A stretch of DNA of 58,752 nt, from assembly GCA_903861005.1 (NCBI GenBank), contig CAIOSP010000184.1, positions 1 through 58,752 on the forward strand. Direction: 5' to 3'. The stretch is from an uncultured Pseudomonadota bacterium (GTDB lineage Bacteria > Myxococcota_A > UBA796 > GCA-2862545). Below, piece by piece: positions 25,232 through 39,328 of the stretch. Both the position numbers and the translations under genes were made by a program. How positions within the stretch are numbered: the stretch's first letter is position 1; each line of letters starts with the position of its first letter. The notes under the pieces are model-generated. The model searched no databases. It had not been told where the DNA came from and worked only from the letters and a program-made list of their open reading frames with translations.

Positions 25232-25852
25232 CTACAGGCCCGACGTGAACCCGGCGTAGGGCAGCTTGGCCGCGACGCCGCGCACCTTGTCCATGCGCAC
25301 CTGGAGCTCGCGGAGCGGGTCCCAGTTGCCGTTGAGGAGCGCGTCGCGCGCGCTGCTGAACATGGTGAACGGGTACGACTGAGCGCCGACCGTCACGGTG
25401 AGCGAGGGGACGTCGATGGCGATCTGCACCGTCGGGTCCGCGAGGACCGCGGCGGCGATGGCCTCCTGCACGTCGTCCTCCACGCGCGCGCACACCAGGC
25501 CGAGCATGGTGCAGTTGCCGTAGAAGATCTCCGCGAACGACGTGGCGATGACGCCCGAGATGCCAAAGCGCATCAGCGCCTGCGGGGCGTGCTCACGCGA
25601 CGAGCCGCAGCCAAAGTTGCGGCCGGTCACGAGGATGGACGCGCCCTCAAACCTGGGATCGTCGAGCGGGTGGCCCTTAGGGGTGCCGTCGTCGGCGAAG
25701 CGGACGTGGTGGAACAGGTACTGCCCGATCCCGTCGAACGTGACGCACTTCATGAAGCGCGCGGGGATGATGCGATCGGTGTCGATGTCGTCGCCCGGGA
25801 CGACCACACCACGACCGGCCACGCCAGTGACGATCTCGCCCAGCTTCCTCAT
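25232..25852 (-). CDS. leuD: 3-isopropylmalate dehydratase small subunit
   Basis: This 206-residue protein shows the swivel-domain signatures [28 protein letters not shown] and [10 protein letters not shown]. With LeuC it isomerises 2-isopropylmalate to 3-isopropylmalate. The length is typical of the bacterial form. The ATG overlaps the leuC stop by 4 bases. It is the last gene of the cimA-leu operon. Confidence 0.96.
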
Positions 25853-27261
25853 GCGACACCTCCGAACACGTCACGCGCATCCGCGATCTCACCCTTGATG
25901 GCGGCCGCGGCGACCATCACCGGGCTCATCAGCACCGTGCGACCGCGCGCGCTGCCTTGCCGACCCTTGAAGTTGCGGTTCGACGTGGACGCGCACATCT
26001 GATCGCCGACCAGCTTGTCGGGGTTCATGGCCAGGCACATGGAGCAGCCCGGACGGCGCCACTCAAAGCCCGCGTCGAGGAACACCTTGTCCAGACCCTC
26101 GGCCTCGGCCTCGGCCGCGACCGACCAGGAGCCAGGGACGATGAGCGCCTTCACGCCCGCCGCCACGTGGTGACCGACGACCACCTTGGCGACCTCGCGC
26201 AGATCGGAGATGCGGCTGTTGGTGCAGCTGCCGATGAACGCGACGTCGACCTTGATGCCCTGCACCGGCTGACCGGGACGGACCTGCATGTGCTCGAGCG
26301 CCTCGCGCCACGTGCCACGCTCCGACACCGGAACCGCCGACTCCTCGGGGATCGACTCGTCGATGCCGACCGCCTGACCGGGGTGGATACCCCAGGTGAG
26401 CGTGGGCGCGATCGTCGACGCGTCGAGGTGCGCGACGTCGTCGTACTCGGCGTCCGGACCGGAGGCGAGCGCCTTCCAGGTCTCGACCGCCGCGTCCCAC
26501 TGAGCACCCGTGGGTGAGTAGGGGCGACCCTTGAGGTAGGCGAACGTCTTCTCGTCGGGGTTGACGTAGCCGACGCGCGCGCCGCCTTCGATCGCCATGT
26601 TGCAGACGGTCATGCGCTCCTCGATCGACATCGCGTCGATCGTGGTGCCGCAGAACTCGTACGCAAAGCCCACGCCGCCGTTCACGCCGAGCGTGCGGAT
26701 GACGTGCAGGATGACGTCCTTGGCGTAGACGCCCTTGCCGAGCGCGCCGTCGATCTGCACGCGGCGGACCTTGAGCGGCTCGATCGCGAGCGTCTGCGTG
26801 GCGAGCACGTCGCGCACCTGGCTGGTGCCGATGCCGAACGCCACCGCGCCGAACGCGCCGTGCGTGCTGGTGTGGCTGTCACCGCAGCAGATCACCATGC
26901 CCGGCTGGGTCAGGCCCTGCTCCGGACCGATGACGTGCACGATGCCCTGACGGCTGTCGGTCTCGCCAAAGTACTGGATGCCGTACTGCTTGCAGTTGTC
27001 GGCGAGCGCCACGATCATGGCCTCCGCGAGGTCGTCGCGGAACGGGCGCGCGCGCTCGTCGGTGGGCACGATGTGGTCGACCGTGGCGAACGTGCGGCCC
27101 GGGTAGGCGACCGACAGGCCCAGCTCGCGGAGCGCGGCGAACGCCTGCGGGCTGGTGACCTCGTGGACCAGGTGCAGGCCCACGAAGAGCTGCGTGCGAC
27201 CATCGGCCAGCACGTCGACGGCGTGGGCGTCCCACACCTTGCGGAAGAGGTTCTTCGACAT
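25849..27261 (-). CDS. leuC: 3-isopropylmalate dehydratase large subunit
   Basis: This 470-residue aconitase-family protein starts with [10 protein letters not shown] and shows [31 protein letters not shown] and [10 protein letters not shown], the last two supplying the cysteines of the 4Fe-4S cluster. It is the catalytic partner of LeuD in leucine synthesis and may also convert citramalate in the isoleucine branch started by CimA. It lies 5 bases downstream of the malic enzyme gene. Confidence 0.97.
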
Positions 27262-27266
27262 CAGGC

Positions 27267-29087
27267 TCAGGCCTCCTGGCGGTAAGGGCCAGGGCCCTTC
27301 GCGCGGATGGGAAGGTACTCAGGCTCCCAGAAGCGGTCGTCAATCCACTCGGCGAGCGCGTCCGGATCAGACGGCACGCTCTCGCGCGCGACGCCGTCGG
27401 CCACGGCCTGCTTCACCACGGCGGCTGCGACGAGGCGGCTCACCTTGGGGAGGTCGGTCAGCGGCGGGTAGATCAGGCCGAACTGCGCGTGGTGCTGCTT
27501 GGTGTAGTCCGACACCGCGTAGGCGCCGGCGAGCACCATGGTGTCGGTGATCTCCGACACGCGCGCGAGCATGGCGCCCAGGCCCAGGCCCGGGAACACG
27601 AACGCGTTGTTGCCCTGGCCGATCGGGAAGCGACGGCCGTCCAGGTTGACCGGCGCGAAGGGCGAGCCGGTGGCGACCAGCGCGTTACCGTCGGTCCACG
27701 CGAGCAGGTCAGACGGCAGCGCCTCGACCAGCTTGGTGGGGTTGGACAGCGCGAAGAGGATGGGGCGCTTGCTGTTGCGCGACATCGCCTCGACCACGCC
27801 CTGATCGAACGCGCCAGGCTGACCGGACAGGCCGATGAGCACGGTGCACTTGGCCTTCTCGATCGTGGTGCGCAGATCCGGGTTGGTGCCGTTCTTGGTC
27901 CAGCCCTCGACCTCCGACGCCTTGTGCGCGAACGCCGCCTTGTGGGGCTGCAGCTCGCGGTTGTCCAAGATCAGCCCGCGCGAGTCCAGCACGTACATCT
28001 GGCTGTACGCCTGCTCGGACGTCAGACCCGCGTTGATCAAGCCCTGCACGATCACGCTGGCCACGCCGACGCCGCCGGCGCCGGCGCCGTACACGCAGAA
28101 GCGCTGGTCGGTGAGCTTCTCACCCTTGAGATGGCAGGCCGTGATGATGCCCGCGAGCGTGACGGCGCCCGTGCCCTGGATGTCGTCGTTGAAGCTCGGC
28201 AGCACCTTGCGGTAGCGCTGCAGCACGTGGAACGCGGCGTCGGACGCCAGGTCCTCCCACTGGAGGATCGCGTTCGGGTACTTCTTGCGGATCACCTCGA
28301 CGAACTTGTCGACGAAGGACTCGTAGGCCTCACCGCGCAGGCGCGGGTGCGGGGCGCCCAGGTACAGCGGGTCCGCGAGGTAGTTGCTGCGGTCGGTGCC
28401 GACGTCCAGGCCGACCGGCATGGTGTGGAAGGGGCTGACGCCGCCGCCCACGGTGTAGAGCGTGAGCTTACCGATGCAGATGCCCATGCCGCCGTAGCCC
28501 TGATCGCCGATGCCCAGGATGGCTGAGCTGTCGGTGACGACGAGCACGCGCACGTCGTACATCGGGTACTCGGCGACGATCTGCTCAAGGCGGTCGATGT
28601 TGCCCTCGTGCACCGTCAGGCCGCGGGGGCTCTGGAACAGCGCAGAGAACTTCTCGATCGCCTCTCCGACGGTCGGCGTGTAGACGATCGGCATCATCTC
28701 TTCCAGGTGCGCCTTGACCAGCGCGTGGAAGAGCACCTCCTGGCGCTCCTGGAGACCGCGCAGGAACTGGTACTTCGAAAGCGGCGTCGGGTGCTCCAGG
28801 TACTGCTTGTAGGCGCGCGCCATCTGCTCCTGCATGGTGGAGACGCGAGGCGGCAGCAGGCCTTCCAGGCCCAGCTCGCGACGCTCTTCCAAGCTGAACG
28901 CGCTGCCCTTGTTCAGCAGGACGAAGCGCAGCAGGCCGATGCCACGGACCCAGGTCTCGATGTGCGCCTTGCCCGCGGCGTCGCGCTTGAGATCGAAGAA
29001 GTGGCTGATCGGCAGGTGCCGACCTTCGATCGCCACGTTGTCGTGCTCGCTGTCGTGCGTGCCGTCTTGCCCATCATCCTGCATCAT
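27267..29087 (-). CDS. maeA: NAD-type malic enzyme
   Basis: This 606-residue protein has the large malic enzyme architecture: [33 protein letters not shown], the metal-binding EDLASDAAF and [11 protein letters not shown], the dinucleotide fold [14 protein letters not shown] and a C-terminal FALSNPT. It decarboxylates malate to pyruvate with NAD(P). Its length and first motif follow the NAD-dependent SfcA type, though cofactor choice is inferred. It sits inside the leucine operon, overlapping leuB by 4 bases. That placement suggests it supplies pyruvate for branched-chain synthesis under the same control. Confidence 0.93.
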
Positions 29088-30192
29088 GCGCGGGTCTCCT
29101 TGCTGCCAAAGCTCGACCGGATGTTCGCGACGACCGCGTCACCCATCTCCACAGTGTTCACGCGGCGCGTGCCGGCGTCGCCCCAGGCGATGTCGCCGGT
29201 GCGCAGGCCCGCGTCGAGCGCGCCCTGCACGGCGTCGTTCACGATCTTGGCCAGATCCGGCCGCTTGACCGTATGCTCCAGCAAGAGGGCGGACGAGAGA
29301 ATGGCCCCCAGCGGGTTGGCCTTGGCCTGGCCCGCGATGTCCGGCGCCGAGCCATGGACCGGCTCGTACAGGCCCGGGCCTTCGCCGAGCGACGCCGACG
29401 GCAGCATGCCCAGCGAGCCCGACAGCGCCGCCGCCAGGTCCGACAGGATGTCGCCGAACAAGTTGCCGGTGACGACCACGTCCGCGTCGCGCGGGTTGGC
29501 CACCATCTTCATGGCATAGGAGTCGACGTACTGGTGGTCGAGCGTGATGTCGCTGTACTCGCGCTTGTGCAGGTCGGTGACGACCTCGCGCCACAGGCGG
29601 GACACCTCGAGCACGTTGGCCTTGTCCACGCTGGTCAGGCGCTTGCTGCGCAGGCGCGCGGTCTCGAATGCGACGCGGGCGACGCGCACGATCTCGGACT
29701 CGGTGTAGACCATGGTGTTGTAGCCGCGGCGCTCCCCGTTCACGGTCTCAATCGCCCGGGGCTCACCAAAGTAGATGCCGCCGCACAGCTCGCGGACGAT
29801 CACGAAGTCGGCGCCACGCGCGCGCTCAGGACGCAGCGGGCTGGCCGCCTCAATCGCCGCGCTGAACTTGGCGGGGCGCAGGTTGGCGAACACGCCCAGC
29901 TCGGAGCGCAGGCGAAGCAGGCCGCGCTCAGCGCGCAGGTGCGGGGCGACGTCGTCCCACTTGGGGCCGCCGACCGCGCCCAAGAGCACGGCGTCGGACG
30001 CCTTGGCGAGCGCGATGGTCGCTTCGGTGACGGGCAGGCCGTACGCGTCGAGCGACGCGCCGCCGAACGCCGCGTGCTCGGCCTCGATCGACATGCCCGC
30101 GTGGGCGCCGACCTCGCGTAGGACGCGAAGAGCCTGGGCGTTCACCTCGGGGCCGATGCCGTCCCCATCAAGAACCAACAGTCGCAGCGAGC

Positions 30193-30196
<4 letters not shown>
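29084..30196 (-). CDS. leuB: 3-isopropylmalate dehydrogenase
   Basis: This 370-residue protein shows LLVLDGDGIGPEV, LLGAVGGPKWD, RELCGGIYFGEPR, YVDSYAMKMVANP (substrate and metal site) and VHGSAPDIAGQ (NAD binding). It oxidises and decarboxylates 3-isopropylmalate. The start is TTG at 30196 (TTG AGC TCG), preceded by GAGGTG and overlapping the leuA stop by 4 bases. No ATG fits, since the longer open frame upstream is just leuA read out of frame. Confidence 0.95.
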
Positions 30197-31758
<1,562 letters not shown>

Positions 31759-31781: not shown

Positions 31782-33413
31782 CTATGCGCTGAACACGGCC
31801 CCGTGCGTCGACGAAGCGACGCCGGGAATTCCCTCTTCCATCAACTTGTACTCGTAGAGATCCACGAGCGCGCGCCAGCTGGCCTCGATCACGTTCGAGC
31901 TGACGCCCACCGTGGTCCAGGTCTGCTTGCCGTCTGACGCGCGGATCAGCACCCGCACCGTGGCGCCGATGCCGTCTCCGCTGTCCATGATGCGCACCTT
32001 GTAGTCGACGAGGCGGACCTCGTGGACGACCGGCCACGCGCGCACCACCACCGCCTCGAGCGCGCGCCCGAGCGCGTCGACCGGGCCGTTGCCGTATTGC
32101 ACCATCGGGACGCTCTCGTCGCCGATCTGCACGCGCATGATCGCGCGCGTGCGGTGGCTCTCGTCCACGTCATGGCGGCGGGCGTCGGCCAGCAGCGACG
32201 TGGTGACGTCGGCCTCTTCGATGGTGAAGTAGTGCGGGCGGTGGCCGTGGGCCTCGGCCAGCAGCAGCTTCATGGACGCCTCGGCGTCCTCGAACGCGTA
32301 GCCCGCGTTCTCCATCTGCTTGATTCGCTCGAGCACGGTGCGCGTGGCCGGGTCGCTCGGGTTGAGCTCGTAGCCAAACTCGCGGGCCTTGTAGACCACG
32401 TTGGAGCGGCCCGACAGGTCCGACATCAGCACGCGGCGGCCGTTGCCGACCAGAGTGGGCTCGATGTGCTCGTAGGCGCGCGCGTCCTTCATGACGGCGT
32501 GCACGTGCACGCCGCCCTTGTGCGCGAACGCCGACTGGCCGACGAAGGCCTGGCGCGCGAGCGGCACGTTGTTGGACAGCTCGTCGACCATGCGGCTGAC
32601 GTGCGTGAGCCGCGAGATGCGCTCCGCGCCCACCACATGAAAGCCCATCTTGAGCTCGAGGTTGGGCAGGATGGAGACGAGGTTGGCGTTGCCGCAGCGC
32701 TCGCCGTACCCGTTGATGGTGCCCTGGACCATGGTGGCGCCGCGGCGCACGGCCTCCAGGCTGTTGGCGACGGCGACCTCACCGTCGTTGTGCGCGTGGA
32801 TGCCAACCGGGCAGCCAACCTTGGCGAGCACGCGCTCAACCAGCCCGCCGACCTGCGTGGGGAGCGAGCCGCCGTTGGTGTCGCACAGGACCACAAACTT
32901 GGCGCCCGCCGACGCGGCCGCCTCCAGCGAGGCCATCGCATACGCCTCGTCGTCCGCGGCGCCGTCGAAGAAGTGCTCGGCGTCGAAGATGACCTCGTCC
33001 ACGCGGGCGGAGAGCCAGCGGACGCTGTCGTGGATCAGCTCCAGGTTCTCTTCGGCGCTGATGCCCAAGACGTCCGTCGCCTGAAAGCGCCAGGACTTGC
33101 CGAAGATGGTGACGACCGGGACCTCGGCGGCGACGAGCGCGGCCAGGTTGGCGTCGTGGTCGCAGGAGATGCCGGCGCGGCGCGTGGAGCCGAACGCGGT
33201 CATGCGCGCGAACTGGAAGCGCTCCTTGGCGGCGGCCGCGAAGAACGCGACGTCGCGCGGGTTGCTGCCGGGCCAGCCGCCCTCGATGTAGGCGATCCCC
33301 AGCTCATCGAGGAGATGGGCGACGCGGATCTTCTCGGTGACCGAGAGCGCAAAGCCTTCTCCCTGCGTGCCGTCACGCAGGGTGGTGTCGTAGGCGAAGA
33401 CTCGTGGGGTCAT
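31782..33413 (-). CDS. cimA: (R)-citramalate synthase
   Basis: This 543-residue protein belongs to the same TIM-barrel family as LeuA but follows the CimA pattern: YDTTLRDGTQGEGFALSVTEK, YIEGGWPGSNPRD, VLCDTNGGSLPTQV, HAHNDGEVAVANSLEAV and AHKGGVHVHAV, plus a C-terminal regulatory domain. It makes citramalate from pyruvate and acetyl-CoA, giving a threonine-independent route to isoleucine. It is the first gene of the operon, 16 bases after the T-run of an attenuator. The ribosome site is weak (GGACG). Confidence 0.94.
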   Translation of the reverse strand: MTPRVFAYDTTLRDGTQGEGFALSVTEKIRVAHLLDELGIAYIEGGWPGSNPRDVAFFAAAAKERFQFARMTAFGSTRRAGISCDHDANLAALVAAEVPVVTIFGKSWRFQATDVLGISAEENLELIHDSVRWLSARVDEVIFDAEHFFDGAADDEAYAMASLEAAASAGAKFVVLCDTNGGSLPTQVGGLVERVLAKVGCPVGIHAHNDGEVAVANSLEAVRRGATMVQGTINGYGERCGNANLVSILPNLELKMGFHVVGAERISRLTHVSRMVDELSNNVPLARQAFVGQSAFAHKGGVHVHAVMKDARAYEHIEPTLVGNGRRVLMSDLSGRSNVVYKAREFGYELNPSDPATRTVLERIKQMENAGYAFEDAEASMKLLLAEAHGHRPHYFTIEEADVTTSLLADARRHDVDESHRTRAIMRVQIGDESVPMVQYGNGPVDALGRALEAVVVRAWPVVHEVRLVDYKVRIMDSGDGIGATVRVLIRASDGKQTWTTVGVSSNVIEASWRALVDLYEYKLMEEGIPGVASSTHGAVFSA

Positions 33414-33428
33414 GCGACGTCCGAAACG

Positions 33429-33462
33429 AAAAAGGCCGACCTGCCATCGAGCGGGTCGGCCT
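33429..33462 (-). terminator. attenuator terminator hairpin before cimA (segments 3:4)
   Basis: On the minus strand AGGCCGACC (33462-33454) pairs perfectly with GGTCGGCCT (33441-33433), with a 12-base loop, and is followed by TTTTT (33433-33429, sharing one base with the stem). This is a classic intrinsic terminator placed between the leader peptide and cimA, a position that only makes sense for attenuation. Confidence 0.85.
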
Positions 33463-33527
33463 GGTTTGAGGGGCTGCGCGAGTTCTGCTACGCACCCTTC
33501 CCAACCAGGCCGACTTGAAGAAGTCGG
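33455..33527 (-). promoter_or_regulatory. alternative leader hairpins (1:2 pause and 2:3 antiterminator)
   Basis: Segment 1 CCGACTT (33527-33521) pairs with AAGTCGG (33516-33510) around the loop CTTC. Segment 2 GTCGGCCTGGTT (33514-33503) pairs over 12 bases with segment 3 AACCAGGCCGAC (33466-33455). Segment 3 is also the 5' arm of the terminator, so the pairings exclude each other. Segments 1 and 2 lie inside the leader peptide reading frame, around its tandem Leu codons 18-19, as expected for ribosome-controlled attenuation. Confidence 0.82.
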
Positions 33528-33574
33528 GCGGTGGGAATGAGAATAACGATGAGGTTGGCCGCGAACGCGGACAT
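33488..33574 (-). CDS. branched-chain amino acid leader peptide (attenuator)
   Basis: This is a 28-codon reading frame, ATG at 33574 to TAG at 33488, with GAGG upstream of the ATG. Eleven codons are branched-chain: Leu 8, 12, 18, 19, 23; Ile 9, 11, 13; Val 10, 21, 24, including the run NLIVILI. Ribosome stalling here would cover segment 1 and free segment 2 to form the antiterminator, allowing cimA-leu transcription when charged Leu/Ile/Val tRNA is scarce. It is comparable in design to ilv and leu leader peptides of enterobacteria, with no sequence relation claimed. Confidence 0.85.
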   Translation of the reverse strand: MSAFAANLIVILIPTARLLQVGLVGKGA

Positions 33575-33619
33575 GCGCTGAACCTCGACCCGCTGGTCAC
33601 CCAACGGTCACGACCAACG

Positions 33620-33648
33620 CTAATATGGGCCGGTCACGCGCGTGTCAA
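33620..33648 (-). promoter_or_regulatory. promoter of the cimA-leu operon
   Basis: TTGACA (33648-33643), 17-base spacer, TATTAG (33625-33620) on the minus strand. Transcription would start near 33613, giving a leader of about 200 bases that contains the leader peptide and attenuator. It lies 21 bases past the stop of the hydroxylase gene. Confidence 0.8.
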
Positions 33649-33668: not shown

Positions 33669-34223
33669 TCAGGTGGCCTGCGCCAGGTCCGGGTTCCACG
33701 CAGGCACGGATCCAGTGGGGATCACGAACGGCATCCGCACGTCCAGCAGGAACGTGATGCGCGGGACCTCCCCGTCGTTCCGGGCCGCGTGCGGCATGCG
33801 GATGTCCATCGGGCGGGCCGTGCCCTCCTTCCAGTAGGCGTGCTCATGGGGGGCGAGGCGCAGGCCCAGGTGGCAGCGGATCACGTCATCGTCGCGGATG
33901 TCGGTGTGGATGCGCAGCGACGCGCCGGGGGCCAGCGCCAGGTAGGCGCCGACGATCGCGCCGGGGATCTGGTCCATGACCGCGGCGGCGACGGGGCAGC
34001 GGCGGCGGTTCGCCTCGACATCCAGGCCCTCAAACTCCTCGCCGTACTGCTCCAGCTTCACGATGCAGGCGGTCCACACGCCCTGGTACATCTCGGTGGA
34101 CGGCATGGGGATGAACAGGCTGCTCGGCAGCGTCTCGAACTCGGCCCGCATCGCCTCGGCGTGGCGTTCCAGGATCTCGAGGAACCCGAAGCGCTGGCGC
34201 GCCATCTCGACTTCGTTCGGCAT
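33669..34223 (-). CDS. aspartyl/asparaginyl beta-hydroxylase family protein
   Basis: This 184-residue protein matches the cupin-like hydroxylase family of Fe(II)/2-oxoglutarate oxygenases: VGAYLALAPGASLRIHTD supplies the first metal ligands (HxD), RCHLGLRLAP follows, then a Trp-Lys-Glu-Gly turn, a second His in MPHAARN and the 2-oxoglutarate-binding Arg in VPRITFLLDV. The target is unknown. The position between the ilv and leu transcription units may be coincidental. It has no clear promoter of its own. Confidence 0.82.
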   Translation of the reverse strand: MPNEVEMARQRFGFLEILERHAEAMRAEFETLPSSLFIPMPSTEMYQGVWTACIVKLEQYGEEFEGLDVEANRRRCPVAAAVMDQIPGAIVGAYLALAPGASLRIHTDIRDDDVIRCHLGLRLAPHEHAYWKEGTARPMDIRMPHAARNDGEVPRITFLLDVRMPFVIPTGSVPAWNPDLAQAT

Positions 34224-34511: not shown

Positions 34512-36242
34512 ATGACCCGGTCTGAATCCAACGCCCAAGACGCCAAGCAGATGGCCGGCGCCGAGATCTTGTGGGAGATCCTCGCCCTTGAGGGCGTGGA
34601 GATCGTCTTCGGCTACCCTGGCGGCGCCATCATGCCCGCCTACGACGCCCTGCCGAAGTACCCCCAGATCCACCACGTGCTGGCCCGCCACGAGCAGGGC
34701 GCCATCCACATGGCGGACGGCTTCGCGCGTGCGTCCGGCCGCACCGGCGTGGTCATCGCCACGTCCGGCCCCGGCGCCACCAACTTGGTCACGGGCCTCG
34801 GCACCGCCATGATGGACAGCATCCCGCTGGTCGCCGTCACCGGCCAGGTCCCGTCCACGGTCATGGGCTCGGACGCGTTCCAGGAGACCGACATCCTGGG
34901 CATCACCATCCCCGTGACCAAGCACGGCTTCCTGGTGACCCGCGCCGAGGACATCGCGAAGACGCTTCGCGAGGCGTTCGCGCTGGCCAAGTCCGGTCGC
35001 CCCGGCCCCGTCCTGGTGGACATCACCAAGGACGCCCTCAACGCCATCGTCGGTCTGAATGACCCTGGTCCCACCACCATCCACCGGCCGCGGATCGAGG
35101 CCCCTGGCTTCTCGGACGCGGATTTGGACGCGGCGGCCGCGCTCATCGCCAACGCCAAGCGGCCGCTGATCCTGGCCGGTCAGGGCGTGATCTCCGCCAA
35201 GGCCACCGCGCAGTTGGAGGCGTTCGTCGAGCGCACCGACATGCCGGTCGCCTGCACGCTGCTCGGCCTGGGATGCTTCTCCACGCAGCACACGCGCAAC
35301 CTGGGCATGATGGGCATGCACGGCGAGGCCTGGGTCAACAAGGCCATCCAGCAGGCCGACCTGCTCGTCGCCATCGGCATGCGCTTCGACGACCGCGTCA
35401 CGGGCAACCTCAAGACCTACGCGCTTGAAGCCAAGAAGATCCACATCGAGTTCGACCCGAGCGAGATCAACAAGGTCGTGAAGGTCGACGTGGGCCTGTG
35501 CGGCGACGCCGCCGCCGTGCTCGACCGCCTGCTCCTCAAGGTGGCCCAGCGCGACTGCGCCCCGTGGATCGCCTCCATCGCCGAGATGCACACCGTCGAT
35601 CGCACCCACGATATCCTCGCGCAAGCCGACGACGGCCGCCTCAAGGCGCCCCAGGTGCTTCACGACCTGTGGGTGCTCACCGAGGGCCGCGCGGTGGTCG
35701 CCACCGACGTGGGCCAGCACCAGATGTGGGAGGCGCAGTACTACAAGCACGACACGCCTCGCTCGCTGATCACGTCGGGCGGCCTGGGCACCATGGGCTT
35801 CGCCCTGCCGGCCGCGATCGGCGCCAAGTTCGCCCGGCCTGAGGCCGAGGTGTGGGTGGTCGCCGGGGACGGCGGCTTCCAGATGACCGCCGCCGAGCTC
35901 TGCACCACCGTGCAGGAGGGCGTGAAGGTCAACATCGCCATCATCAACAACGGCTTCTTGGGCATGGTGCGCCAGTGGCAGCAGTTCTTCTATGAGCGGC
36001 GCTACGTCTCCACGCCCATGCTGTCGCCGGACTTCGTGAAGCTGGCCGAGGCGCACGGCCTGACCGGGATCCGCGTCACCTCGCGCGATCAGATCCCGGC
36101 GGCCGTCGCCAAGGCGCGCGCCACGCCGGGCACGGTGCTGATTGAGTTCCAGGTGGTCGAAGAAGACAGCGTGTACCCGATGGTGCCCGCTGGCAAGGAC
36201 CTCGCGGACATGATCCGCCGCCCCAAGACGGAGGCCTCGTGA
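34512..36242 (+). CDS. ilvB: acetolactate synthase large (catalytic) subunit
   Basis: This 576-residue protein is of normal length. It has VFGYPGGAIMPAYD, RHEQGAIHMADGFARASG with the catalytic Glu, TSGPGATNLVTGLGTAMMDSIP, an FAD-binding middle domain, and the thiamine-diphosphate motif GDGGFQMTAAEL followed by NNGFLGMVRQWQ. It makes acetolactate or acetohydroxybutyrate for Val/Leu and Ile. The ATG follows GGAGG. It heads the ilvB-ilvM-ilvC-ilvD cluster. Confidence 0.97.
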   Translation: MTRSESNAQDAKQMAGAEILWEILALEGVEIVFGYPGGAIMPAYDALPKYPQIHHVLARHEQGAIHMADGFARASGRTGVVIATSGPGATNLVTGLGTAMMDSIPLVAVTGQVPSTVMGSDAFQETDILGITIPVTKHGFLVTRAEDIAKTLREAFALAKSGRPGPVLVDITKDALNAIVGLNDPGPTTIHRPRIEAPGFSDADLDAAAALIANAKRPLILAGQGVISAKATAQLEAFVERTDMPVACTLLGLGCFSTQHTRNLGMMGMHGEAWVNKAIQQADLLVAIGMRFDDRVTGNLKTYALEAKKIHIEFDPSEINKVVKVDVGLCGDAAAVLDRLLLKVAQRDCAPWIASIAEMHTVDRTHDILAQADDGRLKAPQVLHDLWVLTEGRAVVATDVGQHQMWEAQYYKHDTPRSLITSGGLGTMGFALPAAIGAKFARPEAEVWVVAGDGGFQMTAAELCTTVQEGVKVNIAIINNGFLGMVRQWQQFFYERRYVSTPMLSPDFVKLAEAHGLTGIRVTSRDQIPAAVAKARATPGTVLIEFQVVEEDSVYPMVPAGKDLADMIRRPKTEAS

Positions 36243-36517
36243 GCACGTTTGTCATCGACCTCGCGGACGGCGCGGGCAGCCTGGAGCGCCTGCTCAACAA
36301 GTGCCGCCGCAAGGGCCACATCCCGCGCTCGTTCGCGGTCGGCCCGTCCGTGGATGGCGTCATGCGCGTGCTCGTCGACTTCCACGAGCCAGCCGCCGCA
36401 CCTGAGCGCATCGCCGCGGACCTCGCGAAGGTGTACGACGTGCGCGCCATCGAACACCGCACCGATCCCCGACTGGCCACGGCGCTTGACGCCGCGATCG
36501 CCGCGTCGAACCCCTGA
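36239..36517 (+). CDS. ilvM: acetolactate synthase small subunit, compact ACT-only form
   Basis: This 92-residue protein is a single ACT domain (FVIDLADGAGSLERLLNKC and then VRAIEHRTDPRL). That is IlvM-sized, lacking the second half found in the usual IlvH/IlvN of about 160 residues. It should bind the catalytic subunit and activate it, possibly with altered valine sensitivity. The GTG start overlaps the ilvB stop by 4 bases, which fixes the start and implies coupled translation. The symbol is given by size and context; homology to IlvM specifically is not proven. Confidence 0.85.
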   Translation: MSTFVIDLADGAGSLERLLNKCRRKGHIPRSFAVGPSVDGVMRVLVDFHEPAAAPERIAADLAKVYDVRAIEHRTDPRLATALDAAIAASNP

Positions 36518-36534
36518 CCCTTCTTCGATTTTAA

Positions 36535-37563
<1,029 letters not shown>

Positions 37564-37576
37564 GCTCGCCCCCGGT

Positions 37577-37600
37577 GGGCGCGTGCCCCCGCGCGCGCCC
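37577..37600 (+). terminator. GC-rich hairpin between ilvC and ilvD
   Basis: GGGCGCG (37577-37583) pairs with CGCGCCC (37594-37600). It has no T-tract, so it may only lower readthrough or stabilise the upstream RNA. It lies 13 bases after the ilvC stop. Confidence 0.35.
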
Positions 37601-37663
37601 TCTCCCCACCCTGGCGCCCTGCACCCCGTGTGCTGGGCGCCTGACTCGTCTCAGAGGTTCCCC

Positions 37664-39328
37664 ATGCGCAACCGCATCAGCCGTCGGATCACCCAAGTCA
37701 AGTCGCAAGGCGCCAGCCAGGCCATGCTGCACGGCGTCGGCCTGACCGACTCGGACCTGGACAAGGGCCAGGTCGGCATCGCCAGCGTCTGGTGGGAGGG
37801 GAACCCCTGCAACGCGCACCTGCTGGAGCTGTCCGAGCACGTCAAGAAGGGGGTGCTCGCGGCGGATCTGATCGGCCTGCGCTTCAACACCATCGGCGTG
37901 TCCGACGGCATCTCCATGGGCACGGACGGCATGTCCTACAGCCTGCAGTCGCGCGACCTGATCGCCGACAGCATCGAGACCGTGGCCGCCGCCCAGTGGT
38001 ACGACGCGGTCGTCACCATCCCCGGCTGCGACAAGAACATGCCCGGCTGCGTGATGGCGATCTCGCGCCTGGACCGCCCCAGCATCGTGGTCTACGGCGG
38101 CACGATCGCGCCTGGCTGCCATGACGGCAAGGACATCGACATCGTCAGCGCCTTCCAGGCCTACGGCGAGTTCGTGGCCGGTCGCATCACCGAAGAGACC
38201 CGCTCGGCCATCGTGCACAAGGCCTGCCCGGGCTCCGGCGCATGCGGCGGCATGTACACCGCCAACACCATGGGCTGCGCCATCGAGGCGCTCGGCCTGT
38301 CGCTGCCCTACAGCAGCAGCACGCCCGCCATGGACCCGCGCAAGAAGGCCGAGTGTGAGGCCGTGGGCGCCGCCCTCGCCAACCTGCTCGACAAGGACAT
38401 CCGCCCCTCGCACATCCTGACCCGCAAGGCGTTCGAGAACGCCGTGGTCGTGGTGACGGCGTTCGGCGGCTCCACCAACGCCGTGCTGCACCTCGTCGCT
38501 ATGGCGCGGTCGGCCAACGTCGAGTTCACCATCGACGACTTCGCGGTCGTGACCGAGCGCACGCCCGTGCTGGCCGACCTCAAGCCGAGCGGCCACTGGG
38601 TCATGGCGGACGTCGACGGCGTCGGCGGCACGCCCGCCGTGATGAAGCTGCTGCTGGACGCGGGCATGCTGCATGGCGACTGCCTGACCGTCACCGGCAA
38701 GACGATCGCCGAGAACCTGGCGGACCTGCCGGGCCTCAAGGAGGGCCAGACGGTCATCCGGCCGCTGTCCAACCCGGTGAAGCCGACCGGCCACATCCGC
38801 ATCCTGCGCGGCAACTTGGCGCCCACGGGCGCGGTCGCCAAGATCACCGGCAAGGAGGGCCTGCGCTTCTCCGGCCCCGCGCGCGTGTTCGACCGTGAGG
38901 AGTCGATGCTGGTGGCCCTGGAGCAGGGCAAGATCCAGAAGGGCGACGTGATCGTCATCCGCTACGAGGGCCCCAAGGGCGGCCCCGGCATGCCCGAGAT
39001 GCTCACGCCCACCTCCGCGATCATGGGCGCGGGCCTGGGCGCCGACGTCGCGCTGATGACCGACGGCCGCTTCTCCGGCGGCAGCCACGGCTTCATCATC
39101 GGCCACGTCACGCCCGAGGCGCAGGAGGGCGGCCCGATCGCCCTGGTGCATGACGGCGATCTGGTCACGATCGACGCTGAGGCCAACACGATCGACGTGG
39201 AGATCGGCGACTGGGATGCGCGCCGCGCCGCCTGGACCGCGCCGCCGCTGCCCGCCACCCGCGGCACGCTCGGCAAGTACGTGCGCCTGGTGAAGTCCGC
39301 GAGCCTCGGCTGCGTCACCGACGAGTGA
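37664..39328 (+). CDS. ilvD: dihydroxy-acid dehydratase
   Basis: This 554-residue protein has the cluster cysteines in [16 protein letters not shown] and [16 protein letters not shown], plus [19 protein letters not shown] near the end. It dehydrates dihydroxyisovalerate and dihydroxymethylvalerate to the keto acids. The ATG at 37664 has AGAGG upstream; the frame is open to 37583, but that extension overlaps the ilvC-ilvD hairpin and lacks homology. It completes the plus-strand ilv set. Confidence 0.96.

Follow-up and report, generated by a model that had tools for sequence, protein, structure and literature searches.

The region ahead of cimA, on the minus strand of a 58,752-nucleotide stretch of DNA (hereafter the window, meaning the whole stretch analyzed), raises the question of how entry of RNA polymerase into a branched-chain amino acid operon might be governed. 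We consider a classical ribosome-mediated transcription attenuator of the cimA-leuA-leuB-malic enzyme-leuC-leuD operon the best explanation, with a probability of about 0.92. The case is built on the anatomy of the leader, its improbability by chance, its codon bias, the calculated dependence of folding on ribosome position, and the conservation of the design in relatives.

The operon and its leader

The six genes lie in the order cimA-leuA-leuB-malic enzyme-leuC-leuD on the minus strand and are tightly packed, with a gap of about 23 nt between cimA and leuA and downstream junctions that overlap or almost touch. Their names are backed by profile matches. The operon and its neighbors are as follows.

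31782-33413, minus strand: cimA, (R)-citramalate synthase, first gene of the putatively controlled operon (TIGR00977, 664.7 bits, cut-off 450)
30193-31758, minus strand: leuA, 2-isopropylmalate synthase (TIGR00973, 606.6 bits, cut-off 598.7)
29084-30196, minus strand: leuB, 3-isopropylmalate dehydrogenase, start approximate (TIGR00169, 417.3 bits)
27267-29087, minus strand: malic enzyme gene, inside the operon (NF010052, 744.3 bits; Pfam malic and Malic_M)
25849-27261, minus strand: leuC, isopropylmalate dehydratase large subunit (TIGR00170, 613.7 bits)
25232-25852, minus strand: leuD, isopropylmalate dehydratase small subunit (TIGR00171, 130.6 bits)
33669-34223, minus strand (as cimA): upstream gene of the aspartyl/asparaginyl hydroxylase-like family, ending at 33669
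34512-39328, plus strand: divergent ilvB-ilvC-ilvD cluster

An attenuator like that of cimA was looked for before the divergent ilvB (34512) and none was seen. Judging from the pathway, the malic enzyme could supply pyruvate, the substrate for citramalate and acetolactate synthesis.

The elements of the proposed attenuator are all on the minus strand, between the hydroxylase-like gene and cimA.

33620-33648, minus strand: putative sigma-70 promoter, TTGACA-N17-TATTAG (-35 at 33648-33643, perfect; -10 at 33625-33620, 4/6)
33488-33574, minus strand: leader peptide ORF MSAFAANLIVILIPTARLLQVGLVGKGA, ATG start, 28 codons plus TAG stop, 11 of them Leu, Ile or Val
33510-33527, minus strand: 1:2 protector hairpin CCGACTT-CTTC-AAGTCGG, 7 bp with loop CTTC, present in the MFE and centroid folds
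33503-33514, minus strand: segment 2, GTCGGCCTGGTT, 5' arm of the antiterminator, 12 bp perfect with 33466-33455
33455-33466, minus strand: segment 3, AACCAGGCCGAC, 3' arm of the antiterminator, overlapping the 5' arm of the terminator
33429-33462, minus strand: intrinsic terminator 3:4, AGGCCGACC-12 nt-GGTCGGCCT followed by a T run, 9 bp perfect

A reading made earlier from the DNA letters (the sequence-only reading) had described the 28-codon leader with 11 Leu/Ile/Val codons, the 7-bp, perfect 12-bp and 9-bp pairings and the T5 run ending 16 bases before the cimA ATG, and our analysis bore out each of these (ORF, 33574 to 33488). The promoter that it had named is present as a sequence, with a -10 element matching at only 4 of 6 positions, and was not reported by a consensus promoter scan of the window; from it we predict a transcription start near 33613. 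The leader ORF is preceded by GAGG, 8 nt upstream of its ATG, and its regulatory codons fall into three groups: L8, I9, V10, I11, L12 and I13; L18 and L19; and V21, L23 and V24. Segment 1 (CCGACTT, 33527-33521) pairs with AAGTCGG (33516-33510). Segment 1 ends with the three nucleotides of Leu codon 18, the hairpin loop contains codon 19 and codons 8-13 are upstream, and thus the claim that the tandem Leu codons sit exactly on segment 1 holds for the first of them only. The 2:3 antiterminator is a perfect 12-bp helix that excludes the terminator, whose arms are AGGCCGACC at 33462-33454 and GGTCGGCCT at 33441-33433. The T run spans 33433-33429, its first T being paired, and the cimA ATG follows at 33413, 16 nt past its end. 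A consensus terminator scan misses the 3:4 hairpin because its maximum loop is 8 and the loop here is 12.

In the mechanism that we propose, RNA polymerase would start near 33613 and a ribosome would begin the 28-codon leader. With charged tRNAs for Leu, Ile and Val plentiful, the ribosome would get to the leader stop codon; the 1:2 hairpin would form behind it, or segment 2 would be covered, and segment 3, left free, would pair with segment 4, so that transcription would presumably stop at the 3:4 hairpin, about 16 nt before cimA. With charged Leu-tRNA scarce, and probably also with Ile- or Val-tRNA scarce, the ribosome would stall on codons leading up to or lying in segment 1 (I11-I13, L18-L19). 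The 1:2 pairing would then be blocked, the 12-bp 2:3 antiterminator would form, and polymerase would enter cimA-leuA-leuB-malic enzyme-leuC-leuD.

Chance expectation, codon choice and predicted folding

Both strands of the window were scanned, giving two terminator-like matches, of which only the one at cimA has a leader and an antiterminator. Markov sequence of first order, made with the dinucleotide content of the window, matched the strict joint pattern (a Leu/Ile/Val-rich short ORF, a terminator and an antiterminator that overlaps it) once in 94 Mb, or about 0.001 expected matches per window, a value that serves as a guide and not as a clean test, as the thresholds were chosen after the element had been seen; the relatives described below are independent evidence. 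An ordinary terminator of the hydroxylase-like gene (33669-34223), with a short ORF and complementary segments present by chance, would also place a hairpin downstream of a same-strand gene ending at 33669, and intrinsic terminators are common after genes. However, the hairpin is 200 nt past that gene and yet 16 nt before cimA, the joint pattern is expected at only about 0.001 per window, and the same design recurs at the cimA of a relative (G166) and of Syntrophia, all of which makes this explanation highly improbable. Only marginally less improbable, in our estimate, is a leader peptide that acts on translation or through Rho-dependent polarity, the hairpin then being no more than a feature of the mRNA. 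In some actinobacterial operons, candidate leader peptides do not fit classical attenuation (PMC1262725), but here a 9-bp stem without mismatches is followed by a T run and overlapped by a likewise mismatch-free antiterminator, the sole such set in the window.

The codons of the leader are unusual for a window with a G+C content of 70%. In ten biosynthetic and neighboring genes of the window, GTT makes up 2.0% of Val, ATT 2.5% of Ile and CTT 3.3% of Leu codons, and these rare NNT synonyms occupy 6 of the 11 Leu/Ile/Val positions of the leader, against 0.3 expected (P ~5e-6). At CTT18-CTT19, in the 1:2 hairpin, and at GTT24, in segment 2, the choice of NNT may have been imposed by base pairing. 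No stem includes GTT10, ATT11 or ATT13, and three NNT codons among the six Leu/Ile/Val positions outside the stems are still improbable (roughly 4e-4 by a hand estimate). Attenuator theory holds that regulatory codons should be rare in bulk mRNA (PMC1183508), a demand that the rare NNT codons of the leader fit.

Folded as a free full-length RNA, the leader has an MFE structure consisting of 1:2 and 3:4 (z -2.97 versus shuffles). We then masked the ribosome footprint codon by codon and folded the full leader under this constraint. The predicted probability of the terminator was about 1 without a ribosome, with a ribosome at early codons and with a ribosome at the stop codon, and fell below 0.5, the antiterminator being preferred, when the A site was placed between codons 13/14 and 17/18; a partial antitermination effect was calculated for codons 10-13 and 18-19. 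The result was robust, the antitermination zone shifting by about one codon across assumed 3' footprints of 8-14 nt. In this full-length model, the predicted fold changes with ribosome position in the sense that an attenuator needs, the antiterminator appearing with a stall at about codons 13-18. In an equilibrium model of the stage before the terminator, with segment 4 still unmade, 2:3 dominates at every ribosome position and there is no discrimination, so the switch would have to depend on kinetics or on the completion of segment 4. The model indicates that the geometry of the leader permits a switch and does not amount to proof of one.

The same profile bears on which amino acids are sensed, as Ile and Val may be sensed besides Leu. 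A sensor of leucine only, with the tandem CTT18-CTT19 as its sensing codons and the upstream Ile and Val codons devoid of a regulatory role, is possible but rather unlikely. Calculated antitermination peaks at codons 14-18, Leu18 is the sole Leu/Ile/Val codon near the center of this zone (joined by 19 if the footprint is short), and most of the operon is leuABCD, as such a sensor would have it; on the other hand, V10, I11 and I13 are the rare GTT, ATT and ATT outside the stems, suggesting selection at these codons too, calculated antitermination reaches a partial level at I11-I13, and operons elsewhere that have cimA only carry Ile-only leaders.

Relatives in the same phylum

Only two genomes, G000 and G006, have a cimA of the window type, among 63 in the order and 71 in the class. 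The latter is the nearest relative and the only one with cimA in the family of the window (cimA identity, 69%), and its contig ends 9 nt before the cimA start. Branched-chain synthesis is mostly missing in the relatives (leuA in 3 and ilvB in 5 of 58 genomes); the large majority of those in the order lack both ilvB and leuA.

The one relative with both the same operon and sequence upstream of cimA is G166, a genome that belongs to the phylum of the window but to another class and order, in which cimA-leuA-leuB-malic enzyme-leuC-leuD is followed by ilvB. The six shared operon genes are 57-76% identical to those of the window (cimA, 66%). Ahead of its cimA lie a GTG-started, Leu/Ile/Val-rich ORF VNTLPASIVVANEPIIGQELLSLLIISDAGLADGHG and an antiterminator GCCGGCCTGG/CCGGGCCGGC overlapping a terminator with TTTT, a design like that of the window in different letters, and TTGACG-N17-TAGACT can be read upstream at a place like that of the window promoter. 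Stalls simulated on the RNA downstream of the ribosome only were predicted to give antitermination from about codon 6 to codon 24, including the LLSLL run, and later stalls to give termination. The prospect raised by the sequence-only reading, of relatives in which both the short frame and the pairings have been lost, is thus contradicted by G166, which has the frame, the terminator and the overlapping antiterminator. The malic enzyme, being in the G166 operon too, is not an accident of the genome of the window. Its gene sits between leuB and leuC in G166 as in the window, and this shared position was noted in genomes far apart from each other (27267-29087 in the window, 5323-7026 in L139).

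The family and order of G166 yielded no further cimA, and elsewhere in the phylum cimA mostly lacks an upstream terminator. In another genome of the family of the window (G019), leuA-leuC stands behind a Leu-only leader, TLLPLGSLLLLEGRVAA, with a terminator and an antiterminator (L145, about 1290-1470).

Leaders of cimA in other phyla and known attenuators

Terminators with Ile-rich leaders precede cimA in Desulfobacterota-like and Acidobacteriota genomes. Within the class Syntrophia, cimA is present in 126 of 149 genomes, and a terminator was found in 86 of 90 upstream regions (29/30 and 57/60 in two sets); in the second set of 60, a Leu/Ile/Val-rich leader (at least 4 such codons in 8) is present in 56 and an antiterminator with a score of at least 10 in 47. 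The leaders are strongly conserved (L152-L181 and L206-L265), as exemplified by PIIISNIIISFPIGGLVVE with arms CCTGGTCGTGG and CCGCTGCCAGG and a terminator with T7-8, and the last 30 codons of 82 of them are 29.5% Ile, 5.1% Leu and 4.1% Val. An alignment of 83 sequences, leaving out three that are unalignable in segment 2, is 88% paired in 2:3 and 91% in 3:4, versus 20-46% when slid by 1-2 columns. Both helices have columns where A-T and G-C pairs replace one another, a form of compensatory change, although relatedness inflates covariation counts. Compensation in segments 2-4, one of the signs by which the sequence-only reading proposed to judge its case, is therefore seen in distant cimA genes and, with the G166 design, supports a ribosome-controlled attenuator. 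The stall-codon simulation used for the window discriminates poorly for several Syntrophia leaders. Among 24 Acidobacteriota cimA loci, 5 (L182-L186) have a 16-18 bp antiterminator, GCAGCGGGTGATGGCTC/GGGCCATTATCCGCTGC, and leader peptides of the AIIIR-IILPASGSG type.

These attenuators are like that of the window in target gene and logic, with covarying arms, and unlike it in that their leader codons are almost only Ile and no leuA stands beside cimA at loci with wide flanks. The logic is shared but no evident sequence is, and we therefore do not claim common descent. We lean toward regarding cimA as a recurrent, undescribed target of leader-peptide attenuation across phyla, with leader codons tuned to the content of the operon. 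The tuning that we propose is Ile-only for cimA without leuA (Syntrophia, Acidobacteriota), Leu, Ile and Val for cimA heading leuABCD, and Leu-only for leuA first, the mixed case being represented by two genomes (the window and G166) and the Leu-only case by one (G019).

Directly upstream of a Chloroflexi cimA lies a T-box (RF00230; L107, 7688-7936), a different sensor at the same gene. It resembles the window element in its place before cimA and in having a terminator, and differs in sensing uncharged tRNA directly. That sensors swap at cimA lends some plausibility to a riboswitch, T-box or protein-binding antiterminator in the window instead of ribosome stalling. We nevertheless regard this as very unlikely. 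Against all of Rfam 15, the window gave no leader-family match at gathering thresholds and, with E values up to 10, the leader matched nothing beyond miRNA, snoRNA and lncRNA noise; the covariance-model search that detected the L107 T-box found no RF00230 in the window; and the ORF that the pairing segments overlap is rich in Leu, Ile and Val and biased in its codons. The Syntrophia and Acidobacteriota leader examples tested against Rfam likewise matched no family.

The leader-peptide attenuators of enterobacterial leuABCD and ilvGMEDA have a Leu/Ile/Val-rich leader ORF and 1:2, 2:3 and 3:4 pairings. The window shares with them such a leader, the three pairings and an intrinsic terminator just before a branched-chain operon, but its target has a malic enzyme among its genes and starts with cimA, which leads to isoleucine by way of citramalate. 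Proteobacterial attenuators were surveyed chiefly by Vitreschak et al. (2004). Leader attenuation with a terminator and an antiterminator is experimentally supported for Corynebacterium glutamicum ilvBNC (PMC11857589) and for the leucine-rich attenuator of Staphylococcus aureus ilv-leu (PMC5794164). Those systems differ from the window in phylum, first gene (ilvB and ilvD) and sequence.

We found no leader-peptide attenuator of cimA in the open-access literature. The earlier suggestion that the element may be undescribed therefore stands for cimA as a target, within Rfam and that literature, and not for the mechanism, which is textbook; the novelty is mild and apparently consists of this target and of a seemingly unrecorded family of cimA attenuators. 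The reading that we favor would place classical attenuation at the citramalate, threonine-independent entry to isoleucine synthesis, in bacteria other than those from which attenuation is mostly known. It further suggests that a large family of Ile-leader attenuators, absent from Rfam, precedes cimA, and leader codons tracking operon products would constitute a natural experiment in attenuator retuning.

Similar arrangements were seen at other branched-chain genes. In Neomarinimicrobiota (L059, 2880-3060; L066, 2720-2900), a leader of the form LPLTIILI..KG and a strong terminator lie just before an ilvD-like gene, and in an Acidobacteria MAG (L082, 200-440), the leader peptide AVIPGIIIAISIG, a terminator and an antiterminator precede an ilvB-like gene.
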